Below, one piece after another: positions 4,157-7,742 of a stretch of 46,678 bases of DNA. Source of the stretch: an uncultured Desulfobacterales bacterium (lineage in GTDB: Bacteria; Desulfobacterota; Desulfobacteria; Desulfobacterales; SpSt-501); assembly GCA_938048455.1 (NCBI GenBank), contig CALIUY010000044.1, positions 1 through 46,678 of the forward strand, in the 5' to 3' direction. Position 1 is the first letter of the stretch. Each line of letters opens with the position of its first letter. The translations under genes and the position numbers were made by a program. The notes under the pieces were generated by a model. That model saw nothing but the letters and a program-made list of their open reading frames with translations. It made no database searches and was not told the DNA's origin.

Positions 4157-5158
4157 TCAAAACTCGACCAGAATCAGGTTCGAGAAAAAAACAGACCCAA
4201 TCACGACGAGGGTCAGAAACCCCTGAGAGACAAGAGCTGCGGCGGCCAATCGGGCCTGCATACGGGGCACGATCTTTTCGAGGCCCGGCTGGCTTCGGTA
4301 ACGGGACAACAACGCCGTTCCGGCTGCGGCGAGAAACCCGACCAGGATCGAGGCGTAGATCGGGTAGCCGATGTAGCCGTATTCTTCCTGAAGGATACAA
4401 AAGGGGCAATGGTGGGTGGGGAGCTCGTAGATGTAAGGGGAGACGAAAGCGATCAACGCCGCCACGTTGAGCGGAAAGGACAGGATCCCCGACACAGCGA
4501 AGGCCTGGGCTCCTGTTCCTCGCCGAAGGATCAGCAAAGCCGCGGACAGGACAAAGATCATGGTTGCGAAGAAAAGGATCTGTAGGGGCAGGACCGGAAG
4601 GGAAGAGACCCAGCCGAGCACGCTTTTTCCCTCCGCGCTGAAGAGAACATCGCAGCAGGAGGTGAGCCTTTCGCCGCGGAGGCTTCGGAAGTAGTCCCAC
4701 TGGAGCTCCGCTTCGAAAGCGGAAAAAGGGATCATGCCGAGAAGCAGTTTACAGCGGGTGCGCAACAGAGGCAGTTGATCCGTCAGCCGGTCGGTGCGCT
4801 CGAGCAGGAGCCAGAGACCGCAGAAAATCGTATTCAAGATTTTCAGCGCGAGCGCCGGGTAGCCCGATTCGCCTGCATTCAGGCTGCCCGCGGCGCACAT
4901 GGCCCCCGGCAGGATGCGGTGCAGGCTGTCCGCGGTGTGGATGAAGAGAAAAAACGAAGCCCCTTGCGCCAGGCACACACGGGAGACGAGGGCCGAAACC
5001 AGCCAGGTCCGGCGCTCGAGGCGAAGCTGTTCCTCGGATGCGCTTTGCGGGTTCCAGCCCTCCAGAAGGCGGTAGGCCCAGAACCCCGCCCCGGCAAGAG
5101 AGACGAAGATCAGGGCGGAAAGCCCTTGGAGGACGAGAACTGCGGGCGAGGAGATCAT
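4157..5158 (-). CDS. Polytopic membrane protein with CPFC motif, NosL/ABC operon partner
   Basis: 333 residues from the ATG at 5158, which lies 4 nt after the stop of the upstream ATPase gene. Roughly eight hydrophobic segments are visible. Eight cysteines occur at about 62, 88, 113, 136, 168, 169, 251 and 254. The last two form HHCPFC next to a predicted membrane boundary, and 168-169 form an adjacent pair (SCCD). A CPxC near a membrane face plus a second Cys pair recalls DsbB/VKOR-type quinone-linked disulfide enzymes, but the overall sequence is not one I can assign to them. Metal or haem binding is equally possible given the NosL neighbour. Function unproven. Confidence 0.75.
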   Translation of the reverse strand: MISSPAVLVLQGLSALIFVSLAGAGFWAYRLLEGWNPQSASEEQLRLERRTWLVSALVSRVCLAQGASFFLFIHTADSLHRILPGAMCAAGSLNAGESGYPALALKILNTIFCGLWLLLERTDRLTDQLPLLRTRCKLLLGMIPFSAFEAELQWDYFRSLRGERLTSCCDVLFSAEGKSVLGWVSSLPVLPLQILFFATMIFVLSAALLILRRGTGAQAFAVSGILSFPLNVAALIAFVSPYIYELPTHHCPFCILQEEYGYIGYPIYASILVGFLAAAGTALLSRYRSQPGLEKIVPRMQARLAAAALVSQGFLTLVVIGSVFFSNLILVEF

Positions 5159-5162
5159 CGGC

Positions 5163-5840
5163 TTAACCCGCTTCGAGAATGCGCCCGTCGCGCATGGCCA
5201 GGATCCGCTCGACGAAGGACGCCTCGGCGACCAAGGGGTCATGGCTTGCGATCACGAGGGTTTTTCCGCCCGCCGGAAGCGAGGCGAGAAGGCTGATCAG
5301 CTCGGCCGCCCGCGCGGTGTCCAGATGAGCCGTGGGCTCGTCGGCGATCACGATCGGGGGATCGAGGATCAGCGCCCGCGCGAGCGCCGCCCGCTGGGCC
5401 TCGCCGCAGGAGAGGCTCTCGGCTCGGGCCTCGGCTCGGCATCCCAGACCGAGGCGTTCGAGAAGGCTTCGCGCCCGCTCCCGCAGGCCCTCTTCCGGAT
5501 CGCTCACCGGGAGCGCAGGCAGCAGAACGTTGTCGATCACCCGCAGCCCTCGCACCAAGTGCGGCTGCTGAAAGACGAAACCGAAGGTTCGGCGCCGGAG
5601 CAAAGACAGGCTCCTCTCGGGCATGCGGGTGAGATCCCGGCCCGCTACCTGTACCCGGCCGGAGGTGGGCCGGCAGAGCGCCCCCAAGATGGAAAGCAGG
5701 GTCGTTTTGCCCGAGCCGCTCGGCCCCATCAAGACGACCGTCTCGCCGGCGGCGATCGTGAGGCTGATCCCCGAAAGCGCCGTGAACTCCTCGGGGCGAC
5801 CGCGGTCGAAAATTTTGGTCACGCGGTCGACGACGATCAT
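5163..5840 (-). CDS. ABC transporter ATP-binding protein (MacB/LolD type)
   Basis: 225 residues. Walker A GPSGSGKTT near residue 38, Q-loop FVFQQPHLV, signature LSCGEAQR (a Cys variant of the usual LSGGE), Walker B PIVIADEP with the catalytic Glu, and the switch His in IASHD are all present. Size and short helical domain match the LolD/MacB/FtsE class that pairs with FtsX-like permeases. The start at 5840 overlaps the permease stop (ATGA at 5837-5840), so the two are almost certainly coupled. A longer upstream reading frame reaching 6248 lies inside the permease gene and is not coding. Confidence 0.92.
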   Translation of the reverse strand: MIVVDRVTKIFDRGRPEEFTALSGISLTIAAGETVVLMGPSGSGKTTLLSILGALCRPTSGRVQVAGRDLTRMPERSLSLLRRRTFGFVFQQPHLVRGLRVIDNVLLPALPVSDPEEGLRERARSLLERLGLGCRAEARAESLSCGEAQRAALARALILDPPIVIADEPTAHLDTARAAELISLLASLPAGGKTLVIASHDPLVAEASFVERILAMRDGRILEAG

Positions 5841-6973
5841 GCCTGCCTCAGCAGCTCGTCCGGCTCCGCCGCCGCCGCCCGCCAGCAGGGGATCCCCGTG
5901 GCGGCGAGGTAGGGGACGACGGCGACGGCGAAGAGAAGAACGATCTGGGGAAGATCGATTGCCGGAACGAGCGCAAAGCGCGGGTAGAGCACCGCCCAAC
6001 CCTGGAGCAGCGGGACGAAGAGAAAGGCGCCGGCGGAAAAGACGTGCACGTAAGCGAGGGACGTCCCGCACAGAAAACAAGCCAGGGCGATGATCAGGCT
6101 TTCCCAGGTTTTGAGAGCCAGCACCTCGGGCAGCTCCCAGCCGACGGCCTTCAACAGCCCGATTTCGCGCTTTTCCTCGCCGCCGATCATCGCCGCCTGG
6201 CTCCAGGCGAAAAAAAGAAAGGCGGCCGCCAGCGAGGAGAAGACCCAAAAGAGAAACCCAGCGCGCCAGTCGAAAAGTTCCTCGTAGGTCCGGGCGATGT
6301 CTTCGCGCAGGATCACACGGCTTTCCGGGATGAGATTGCGGACCTTGGCGGCGACGACGCGGCGCTCGTTTTCGTTTCCGACCCGCAGGGTGATGTCGGT
6401 GAAGAAACCTTCAGGCACGCCGAGGAGGAGACGCAAGTCTGCGACGGGCATTTCGATCAGATCCGCGGCGGCAAGCTCCGAGGCAGGGGAGAAAACCTCG
6501 GCGACGCGGATGGAGTGGACCTCCCCGTGGGGGTCGCGCAAAGAAATCGTCTGGCCGGGGTCCGCCCCGAGGAGGCGGGCGACCCCGCGGCCGAGCGCCG
6601 CCGTTCCCGGGGCAAGCCGGGAATCGTCCGCCGCGACCAGGGTGAGGTTCGCCCCCGTCGTCTCCTCGAAATGATAACCCCAGATCCGGCCCCGGACATG
6701 GCTCACTCCCGGGATAAGCCGCAGCGACTCGAGGTGATCGGCGGCGATGAGCTCCTGGCGCCCGGCCACCAGCCGTTGGACGATGATCTCGGGAGCCCCG
6801 CGGAGAAGCAGGCGCGCCTCGCGCTTCAGGGCCGCGGTGCAGAAGACGACCGAGGCGAAGACGAAAACGAGAGCGGTATACAACAGAACGAGGGGCAGGT
6901 TCCTCGAACGGCGACGGAGGATTGCGGCAAGGGCGAGGCCGAAGAGTCTTCGTTGGCGGGAGAGAATCTTCAC
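5837..6973 (-). CDS. ABC transporter permease, FtsX/MacB type
   Basis: 378 residues starting at a GTG that overlaps the preceding stop (GTGA). Topology is one N-terminal transmembrane helix (about 25-48), a periplasmic domain of about 200 residues, then three helices (about 240-265, 290-325, 335-365), as in FtsX-domain permeases of the MacB/LolC class. GEEKREIGLLKAVGW is the conserved FtsX-domain cytoplasmic motif. Such exporters usually act on periplasmic or membrane substrates by mechanotransmission rather than by classical transport. Its operon partners are a NosL-like protein and a CPFC membrane protein, which points to metal or redox cofactor handling (inference). Confidence 0.88.
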   Translation of the reverse strand: MKILSRQRRLFGLALAAILRRRSRNLPLVLLYTALVFVFASVVFCTAALKREARLLLRGAPEIIVQRLVAGRQELIAADHLESLRLIPGVSHVRGRIWGYHFEETTGANLTLVAADDSRLAPGTAALGRGVARLLGADPGQTISLRDPHGEVHSIRVAEVFSPASELAAADLIEMPVADLRLLLGVPEGFFTDITLRVGNENERRVVAAKVRNLIPESRVILREDIARTYEELFDWRAGFLFWVFSSLAAAFLFFAWSQAAMIGGEEKREIGLLKAVGWELPEVLALKTWESLIIALACFLCGTSLAYVHVFSAGAFLFVPLLQGWAVLYPRFALVPAIDLPQIVLLFAVAVVPYLAATGIPCWRAAAAEPDELLRQA

Positions 6974-7266
6974 GGTGTTCCAGGGGGCCGCGGCGGGCGA
7001 ACGAACATCCCCGTGGGATGGGGATCAAACGCGAGAGGGTGAAGACGAAATGCGGCGTGGCGGTCGACGACCGCGGGATGCCGCGTGTGGGGAGCTTCGG
7101 GGAAAAGGCAGAGGTCGGACAACTCGAGGCGCTCGATCAGGGAAAGGGTTTCCACGCGGTCTCTTCCCGCCGTTCGCTCAAGCCGGGCGGCGTGGAGCCA
7201 TACGGCGAAAATCACCGCGACGGCGGCCGAAAGGATCCAGGGGGCTGTCCGAGAGCGCCGGCGCAT
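6970..7266 (-). CDS. Membrane-anchored His-rich small protein in NosL/ABC operon
   Basis: 98 residues. A single hydrophobic segment at about 9-26 would anchor it with the C-terminal part outside. The exposed part has Cys53, Met87 and five His at about 60, 63, 70, 76 and 83, within the pattern HTRHP-x5-RHAAFRLHP-x3-FDPHP-x-GMF, suggestive of metal coordination. The ATG overlaps the stop of the NosL-like gene by one base (TGATG), and its stop overlaps the permease GTG, so it is translationally embedded in the operon. I do not know a named family for it; the metal role is an inference from composition and context. Confidence 0.7.
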   Translation of the reverse strand: MRRRSRTAPWILSAAVAVIFAVWLHAARLERTAGRDRVETLSLIERLELSDLCLFPEAPHTRHPAVVDRHAAFRLHPLAFDPHPTGMFVRPPRPPGTP

Positions 7267-7742
7267 CAGTCGAGAAGCTGGAGCGTATCCGAATCGATGC
7301 GTTCGAAGGGAAGGATTTCTTTTCCCCGGTGATCTTTTAGAAATTCGCGGGCGTCCGCCTCGCGCTCGAAGGGGATGAGCTCCTTACCCATCGGTCCCAG
7401 CACGTCGCTTCCGAGCACGTAAAACGCCCGGCGGCCGTCGATCAACTCGAGGCGGTAGTAATCGGTGACGTAGATGCGCTCGATGTCCTCCGGCTTTTTC
7501 CCGCGGCCGTAGCGGTCCATGCGGAAGCGGTATTTCATCATGTCCTTGACCCCGTCGAAGAAGACGGCCGAGCCGTCCGTGAAGACGACGGCGGCGACCC
7601 AATCCGGGTACTTGGCGACGAACATGCCGCAGACGGGACACTTGTCCTTCGGCCCGGGCTTCGGCGCCCGGGGCTCGGCCGCAAGGGCCGCAGCGGCGAT
7701 CGCTGCGGGCAGGGCGATGAACATCAGAGCACTTCTTTTCAC
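7266..7742 (-). CDS. NosL-like copper-binding protein
   Basis: 158 residues from a GTG at 7742 behind AGGAAGGA with a 7-nt gap; longer in-frame starts lack this. Residues 1-22 look like a signal peptide (KRSALMFIALPAAIAAAALAA). The mature protein opens with the hallmark CPVCGM (35-40), followed by the NosL fold (FTDGSAVFFDGVKDMMKY, YYRLELIDGRRAFYVLGSDV, KDHRGKEILPF). NosL proteins bind Cu(I) and help assemble nitrous oxide reductase. No nosZ or nosDFY is in view, and the usual lipobox Cys is absent, so this looks like a soluble periplasmic relative heading a MacB-type ABC operon. Confidence 0.88.
   Translation of the reverse strand: MKRSALMFIALPAAIAAAALAAEPRAPKPGPKDKCPVCGMFVAKYPDWVAAVVFTDGSAVFFDGVKDMMKYRFRMDRYGRGKKPEDIERIYVTDYYRLELIDGRRAFYVLGSDVLGPMGKELIPFEREADAREFLKDHRGKEILPFERIDSDTLQLLD

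Follow-up and report, generated by a model that had tools for sequence, protein, structure and literature searches.

What does a NosL protein do in a bacterium in which no nitrous oxide reductase gene is matched? NosL is a known accessory of that enzyme, and the question is raised by five minus-strand frames at 7742-4157 of a 46,678-nucleotide (nt) contig from an uncultured Desulfobacterales bacterium (CALIUY010000044.1; the whole stretch is called the window here). They encode, in this order, a NosL-family protein, a small one-helix protein, an ATP-binding cassette (ABC) permease, its ATPase and a membrane protein with a CPFC motif, hereafter the CPFC protein. This gene set is strongly conserved and copper-linked, and its core protein belongs to no named family. 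On balance, and with moderate confidence, we favor reading the operon as a relay for periplasmic Cu(I), in which NosL would cooperate with an ABC machine of the Lol type and a thiol-active membrane protein.

An earlier note on this DNA, made from the sequence letters, had described the five frames as one operon, and their positions and junctions are as it gave them (Table 1): from the coordinates, successive genes are joined by a 1-nt overlap, a 4-nt overlap, a further 4-nt overlap and a 4-nt gap.

Table 1. Genes of the operon in the window, in operon order (aa, amino acids)
Feature	Coordinates	Strand	Remarks
NosL-family protein, 158 aa	7266..7742	-	GTG start; Pfam NosL
Small one-helix protein, 98 aa	6970..7266	-	ATG start; no Pfam or NCBIfam match
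FtsX/LolCE-type ABC permease, 378 aa	5837..6973	-	GTG start; profile A3 against LolF
LolD/MacB/FtsE-type ATPase, 225 aa	5163..5840	-	ATG start; ABC_tran
CPFC membrane protein, 333 aa	4157..5158	-	ATG start; alignment A1, model

The first protein matches the Pfam family NosL (PF05573) with 111.9 bits (E 3.6e-32) against a cut-off of 24, and a NosL profile finds the solved NosL of 7og7 (E 1.5e-18) and that of 7osf-7osj (E 1.3e-16). It bears the motif C35-P-V-C38-G-M40 and a second conserved Met, Met118; C35, C38, G39, M40 and M118 are conserved in 62 of 62 rows. It thus shows both the second invariant Met and the CXXCXM motif of clade II NosL, the latter as described for that clade (PMC6530538). 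The N-terminus is signal-like and has no lipobox Cys, the first Cys being motif Cys35; the protein is therefore without a lipoprotein anchor, which the Pfam family does not demand. Often a second kind of NosL, marked by CxxCGMD..F.HSR, stands ahead of the first in the loci, and one such sequence (L099) is included among the 18 chosen rows of alignment A5.

Relatives of the CPFC protein occur in 22 of 96 genomes from the same genus and order. Around the 24 CPFC loci of these relatives, six of them on pieces under 8.7 kb and three holding N, sensitive profiles placed same-strand partners nearby: the ATPase at 20 loci, the permease at 18 and NosL at 17, including one weak match (L046). In a named collection, the single CPFC sequence gave 64 pattern matches of which none was confirmed; with the alignment, at least 564 relatives were confirmed among at least 594 pattern matches, and the best-scoring 80 loci were examined, so that gene order may be looser in remoter relatives. 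These best 80 of at least 564 come, as judged by record title, mostly from Deltaproteobacteria/Desulfobacterota and Geobacteraceae, and also from Nitrospirae, Holophagaceae (Geothrix), Lentisphaerae, Marinimicrobia and a Methylococcaceae bin. All five genes, from NosL to the CPFC protein, keep their order on one strand in 56 of the 80; permease, ATPase and CPFC protein share a strand within 6 kb in 72. Six of the eight exceptions (L085, L096, L111, L132, L134, L143) are short contigs or have the match less than 1 kb from an end, and two (L098, L154) are neither. The earlier note had proposed a separate conserved system whose genes should be neighbours in related genomes; this adjacency is upheld, and both the 80 named loci and the 24 loci of relatives support the proposal.

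The strongest result for the gene set is the phylogenetic profile of NosL and the CPFC protein. Among the 96 relatives, PF05573 is found in 23 genomes, which are all 22 CPFC genomes and one more (G068) whose match lies below the family cut-off; at the cut-off, NosL is confined to the CPFC genomes (22 of 22). In some of them NosL lies far from the CPFC gene, about 45 kb away on one contig in G048 and more than 2 Mb away in G059, and the link therefore goes beyond adjacency. A phylum sample of 198 genomes holds 30 with CPFC, 32 with NosL and 26 with both, and all 18 genomes with a best NosL E below 1e-25 have CPFC. The Fisher values of 8.6e-21 for the relatives and 9.4e-23 for the phylum sample are descriptive, as they ignore shared descent and the two samples have at least seven genomes in common.

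A NosZ-specific match is present in one of the 96 relatives (G080), as a fragment: besides the C-terminal part, an N-terminal NosZ stretch of 87 positions was found at a contig end. In 13 of the 14 genomes matched by the nosZ model TIGR04246 the match covers the C-terminal cupredoxin part alone, and these were rejected as nosZ. Cupredoxin-type matches to the end of this model were seen at L054-L077, many of them in frames of about 640-680 aa and, except in G080 (L071), with no other NosZ match.

The genes next to the set point independently to copper. Recurrent neighbours, named with NCBIfam and Pfam on representatives, are a CusA/CzcA-type resistance-nodulation-division pump (1049 bits against a cut-off of 701.45), a CusB/CzcB-type adaptor, a large multicopper oxidase (Cu-oxidase_2), SCO1/SenC and a ResA/TlpA-type thioredoxin. 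Of the 80 loci, 21 have CusA, 20 CusB, 13 the oxidase, 12 SCO1 and 10 TlpA/ResA, against 0, 1, 1, 0 and 0 of 40 control stretches of 20 kb, a contrast that weighs more than its p-values, the controls being drawn from two genomes. CusA/B, oxidase or SCO1 accompany the set in 36 of the 80 loci, and at least one of the five neighbours in 43. Together with the CXXCXM motif of NosL, these CusA/CusB, oxidase and SCO1 neighbours make copper, one of the alternatives in the earlier note's copper- or thiol-handling system, the likely substrate. Multihaem neighbours (a frame with at least three CxxCH) are not enriched (9/80 loci, 3/40 controls), and because of this an octahaem copper sulfite reductase is unsupported as a general client; the enzyme itself was not searched.

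As to the direction of copper flow, we weight detoxification and supply equally. Detoxification, in which the set would gather periplasmic Cu(I) for CusBA or a multicopper oxidase and the ABC machine would power its release from NosL, is a tentative reading that fits the CusA and oxidase counts in the 80 loci and their near absence from the controls. It also fits the window's own genome (96.5% complete, 64 contigs), where CusA scores over its cut-off, with CusB- and TolC-like frames adjoining (L234, by eye), and where nosZ (TIGR04246; the Tat-type, or twin-arginine translocation, nosZ model was not run), SCO1, the large multicopper oxidase of the neighbour type, COX2 and Cu-oxidase_3 gave no match. 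As every cuproenzyme searched was without a match, the evidence from this genome leans to copper homeostasis, azurin, SodC and the octahaem sulfite reductase lying outside the cuproprotein search. However, the Cus-type efflux operon of this genome is on a contig other than that of the five-gene set, across whole genomes CusA shows no significant association with CPFC, and the SCO1 and cupredoxin neighbours favor supply. The genome holds two NosL genes; the second (L052) adjoins frames read by eye as NarG and NarI and lies about 48 kb from the Cus-type operon on the same contig (G000:C12).

Equally tentative is a dedicated role in cuproenzyme maturation, by which the set would insert copper into a CuA, CuZ or blue-copper site, the enzyme being periplasmic or in the outer membrane, much as NosLDFY serves NosZ. 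The large multicopper oxidase stands beside the set and is also tied to CPFC across genomes: it occurs in seven of the 96 relatives, six of them with CPFC (Fisher 0.0005), and its five strong-match genomes all have CPFC. At L034, two COX2/cupredoxin-domain proteins sit within the set, between the CPFC protein and the permease. L036 and L037 carry three or four further NosL-like genes each beside the set, with iron-sulfur (Fe-S) proteins in L036 and an ABC-2 permease in L037, the loci in which each was checked; these surroundings presumably resemble part of a nos cluster, with the Fe-S proteins NosG/NosH-like and the permease NosY-like. On the other hand, no single enzyme accompanies the set, and neither the window genome nor its nearest relative, G003, has a match to any cuproenzyme family searched.

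Several further genes were seen around the set. In L034, a protein of the NosZ-end cupredoxin type also bears a Fer4_5 domain. In a divergent branch, a DsbD_2 (CcdA-like) membrane family lies near the set (L041 11167-11988, L044 3408-4184, L049 11218-12027), as assigned by Pfam on L041 alone. At L093, L094, L112, L146 and L155, SCO1-type genes adjoin a family of about 570 aa that has one CxxCH in the parts read and a weak periplasmic-binding-protein match (checked in L155 only); close to these SCO1-type genes, L112 and L146 also have a large multicopper oxidase and, by eye, an FKBP-like gene.

The permease and ATPase had been read by the earlier note as an FtsX/MacB-type pump. With the single permease sequence, Pfam FtsX reaches 23.1 bits, slightly below its cut-off of 25.5, and TIGR02212 (lolCE) gives E 1.5e-7 and 30.7 bits against a cut-off of 362.45. 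Among solved structures, profile A3, from 25 chosen rows, picks out the sequences of LolF (E 3.4e-9, across profile positions 33-376), LolC (4.7e-8), YtrF (7.4e-8), LolE (3.7e-6) and, marginally, MacB (0.0054). On account of these matches the permease is assigned by sequence to the FtsX/Lol (mechanotransmission) type, and the MacB label gives way to a Lol-like one. The ATPase scores 111.6 bits (E 5.6e-32) with Pfam ABC_tran, and its best NCBIfam model is LolD (TIGR02211; 185.3 bits against a cut-off of 307.75). Its Walker A motif is GPSGSGKT, and its signature reads LSCGE, against LSGGE in the family, where 97% of 78 rows have Gly at position 145. Since ABC proteins of the FtsX/Lol type often power periplasmic work and not transmembrane transport, a pump is unproven for this pair.

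That permease and ATPase are nearest to Lol proteins and LolD could also mean an ordinary Lol-like lipoprotein or drug exporter with NosL nearby by chance. We consider this already disfavored reading very improbable: the scores lie far below the Lol equivalog cut-offs, this NosL has no lipobox Cys, and NosL and CPFC are linked across genomes in a set of fixed gene order. In one relative (G078) the FtsX permease is split across two frames (L030 9424-10998), owing to a frameshift or an assembly error, or because the gene is broken; the same genome carries a second, divergent set at L050.

The CPFC protein matches no Pfam family at E up to 1, no NCBIfam model over its cut-off and no PDB sequence at E up to 10. 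Of its eight Cys in the window (62, 88, 113, 136, 168, 169, 251, 254), Cys 88, 168, 169 and 251 are invariant in 81 of 81 rows, as are His 249 and 250, and Cys 254 is kept in 96%; the remaining three (62, 113, 136) are not conserved. For residue conservation, loci with N or lacking a start codon near the expected site were omitted, which kept 79/80 CPFC, 61/61 NosL, 68/68 small-protein and 73/74 permease rows from the reference lists. The 80 loci were picked by the pattern GAMC, and the invariance of G85-A86-M87-C88-G91 there is by construction; in the 23 members of alignment A1, found without this pattern, G85, A86, C88 and G91 are invariant and M87 nearly so. The structural model (predicted local distance difference test, pLDDT, 89.9; predicted template modeling score, pTM, 0.88) has eight long helices, with the conserved Cys in three loops, GAMC88, SCC168-169 and HHC251PFC254. 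These loops contain on average 0.6, 1.7 and 0.8 Lys+Arg (mean of 23 sequences) against 2.1-3.5 in those opposite, and therefore all three, with the five conserved Cys, are probably periplasmic in the modeled topology. The earlier note's suggestion of a disulfide- or metal-active protein is plausible in view of this Cys and His conservation and of a weak VKOR signal.

The VKOR signal is of two kinds. Pfam VKOR (PF07884) touches two of the 23 A1 members (E 0.014 and 0.024; scores 16.0 and 15.2 against a cut-off of 27.5) between the SCC loop and the CPFC motif; it does not match the window protein, and ADD_DNMT3, an unrelated family, likewise touches two of the 23. Compared profile to profile with 30 VKOR domains of the same genome set, CPFC scores 34.3 (probability 49.8). 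The controls score lower: at most 20.6 when CPFC or VKOR is set against four other membrane families (eight comparisons), 18.9 for the reversed CPFC profile and at most 25.0 for 40 column shuffles. In the alignment, the first loop Cys of VKOR falls on Cys169 in the SCC loop, and the VKOR CXXC on Cys251/Cys254. The order helix, Cys loop with a short helix, helix, helix, CXXC, helix fits the modeled transmembrane helices TM4-TM7 and agrees with what we take to be the topology of VKOR.

By fold, the whole model gave no Foldseek match at E up to 0.001, and VKOR is absent from the 50 fold matches listed for it. The matched rows, mainly over residues 1-163, are four-helix arrangements, such as a designed protein (Z 14.3, root-mean-square deviation (rmsd) 2.9, 140 aligned) and chain C of cytochrome bo3 (Z 11.1, rmsd 3.2, 132 aligned), and were set aside as only a common arrangement. 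For residues 126-300 (pLDDT 80.2), the best match has Z 6.3, rmsd 3.4 and 75 aligned residues, with neither VKOR nor DsbB among the matches listed, a negative that has no power to exclude either. DsbB is also not in the 15 Pfam families listed for the 23 A1 members at E up to 1. Membership in the DsbB/VKOR families, against which the earlier note had suggested modeling the CPFC protein, is thus not borne out by Pfam cut-offs or listed folds, and the resemblance to VKOR, a weak signal at the sequence level, remains a lead.

If that lead were followed to its end, the CPFC protein would be a VKOR-related thiol oxidoreductase and the set would make or guard disulfides or thiols, with copper secondary. 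The profile score above all controls, the two Pfam contacts and the TlpA/ResA genes in 10 of 80 loci are consistent with this account, which we hold to be unlikely, as the Pfam scores stay under the cut-off, ADD_DNMT3 touches as many members, the listed folds include no VKOR, and VKOR itself is not tied to CPFC genomes (8/22 vs 26/74). Moreover, C168 directly precedes C169, and for Cys88 the alignment offers no counterpart in VKOR.

The small protein is composed of one N-terminal helix and a short exposed tail, with the family consensus TDLCLFTEARYTRHPS..D....FQD.P...EHFPSG. Neither Pfam (E up to 1) nor NCBIfam (over cut-off) matched it, and a comparison with PDB sequences found no relative, one chance match having E 0.42. 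Alignment A4 was made from 22 chosen rows; in 69 of 69 rows D51, R62, D68, P77 and P84 are invariant. His occurs at positions 25, 60, 63, 70, 76 and 83, five of them past the helix, so the five exposed His of the earlier note are present in the window. A His-rich reading fails across the family, where, in the 69 rows, H63 is kept in 87%, H76 in 68% and H70 in 62%, only H63 being well kept, and where Tyr takes position 60 in 94% and Phe takes position 83 in 97%. The conservation of Cys and His that the earlier note had expected therefore holds for five of the eight CPFC Cys and mostly fails for the His of the small protein. In the divergent branch (L039, L040, L044, L045, L047-L050) a different-looking one-helix protein, by eye, replaces the small protein, and the small-protein profile does not match it.

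For the favored Cu(I) relay, we infer copper as the substrate, physical interaction of the parts, an order of transfer, a redox role of the CPFC protein and a direction of flow. The secreted NosL-like chaperone would bind Cu(I) through its CXXCXM motif. The Lol-type ("type VII," mechanotransmission) permease-ATPase complex may use cytoplasmic ATP to move its periplasmic part, and the small anchored protein may act together with it. The Cys loops of the CPFC protein could form a hand-over site for Cu(I), or the protein could be a membrane thiol-disulfide relay that keeps the Cys residues of both NosL and client in the redox state they need. By analogy with known systems, movement powered by ATP would free Cu(I) from NosL and pass it to an acceptor. 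Depending on the host, this acceptor may be CusBA efflux, a multicopper oxidase or a cupredoxin, and less often a nos system.

A number of observations weigh against this relay. Among the relatives, four loci with long upstream flanks are incomplete: all four partners are missing at L042 and L051 (the latter holds N), L046 shows only the weak match to NosL and neither ATPase nor permease, and a nearby permease is missing at L032. In the phylum sample, four of the 30 CPFC genomes have no NosL match and six NosL genomes have no CPFC. No copper or TlpA neighbour was found in the sequence examined at 37 of the 80 loci, including the nearest named record, L078 (a Desulfatibacillum sp. metagenome-assembled genome). 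The control stretches come from two relatives' genomes, and the same 80 loci supplied the neighbour profiles. Two-component genes show no enrichment around the set (26/80 loci vs 16/40 controls), and genome-wide neither CusA over its cut-off (13/22 vs 29/74, p 0.14, among the 42 of 43 matched genomes listed) nor SCO1 at E <= 0.001 (5/22 vs 9/74, p 0.30) is tied to CPFC. Asp replaces Cys254 in the CPFC proteins of L030 and L031, and a meeting of the CPFC Cys loops is seen in no structure.

Some parts of this set are of known kinds. One paper describes NosL as a relay of copper to NosD complexed with NosFY (PMC13068155), while a 2019 paper thought NosDFY a likely sulfide supplier (PMC6530538). 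The window set resembles NosL-NosDFY in that a NosL with the clade II motif adjoins an ABC ATPase and permease, and in a likely ATP-driven copper hand-over. It differs in its permease, which is of the Lol/FtsX type and not ABC-2 like NosY, in lacking NosD among its five genes, in its two extra families (CPFC and small protein), in a NosL without the lipobox Cys of the anchor described for classical NosL, and in a genome without a nosZ match. NosL-ABC loci without NosZ have been noted earlier, as in the Parageobacillus NosDFY-NosL locus (PMC13068155), and in Shewanella oneidensis nosL/nosY genes are listed beside the sir sulfite reductase genes (PMC5955497). These loci are similar in that NosL and an ABC transporter may serve a client other than NosZ; in the portions of these two sources consulted, their ABC parts are of the nos type, and neither CPFC nor the small protein is mentioned.

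The other parts can be compared in the same way. Like LolCDE/LolF, MacB, FtsEX and YtrF, the set combines an FtsX-type permease with a LolD-like ATPase; unlike them, it scores under the Lol curated cut-offs and has NosL and CPFC as partners. As in VKOR/DsbB, a probably periplasmic CXXC of the CPFC protein stands, in the model, just before a helix, and a Cys loop appears to follow the first of four helices (TM4-TM7); unlike VKOR/DsbB, the protein has eight helices, an extra loop Cys (GAMC), an adjacent SCC and a weak profile score, with no such fold among the matches listed. NosL and Lol-type ABC parts are thus known kinds, and their combination with the CPFC protein was not found in the open-licence papers searched.

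Altogether, if the set is a copper machine, it would give a function to two unannotated protein families and account for NosL genes in nosZ-free genomes. It would also offer a route to study periplasmic copper movement in Geobacteraceae, Desulfobacterota, Nitrospirota and Holophagaceae, groups that include many metal or sulfate reducers. We speculate further, on a reading that we regard as rather improbable, that NosL in Desulfobacterota and several other phyla could be primarily the copper carrier of an unnamed machine with CPFC at its core, in which a VKOR-like, possibly quinone-linked thiol relay and a Lol-type mechanotransmission ABC complex would use ATP and membrane redox to load Cu(I) on periplasmic proteins or strip it from them. 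If this were true, the NosZ-linked NosDFY would be one of two kinds of NosL machine.

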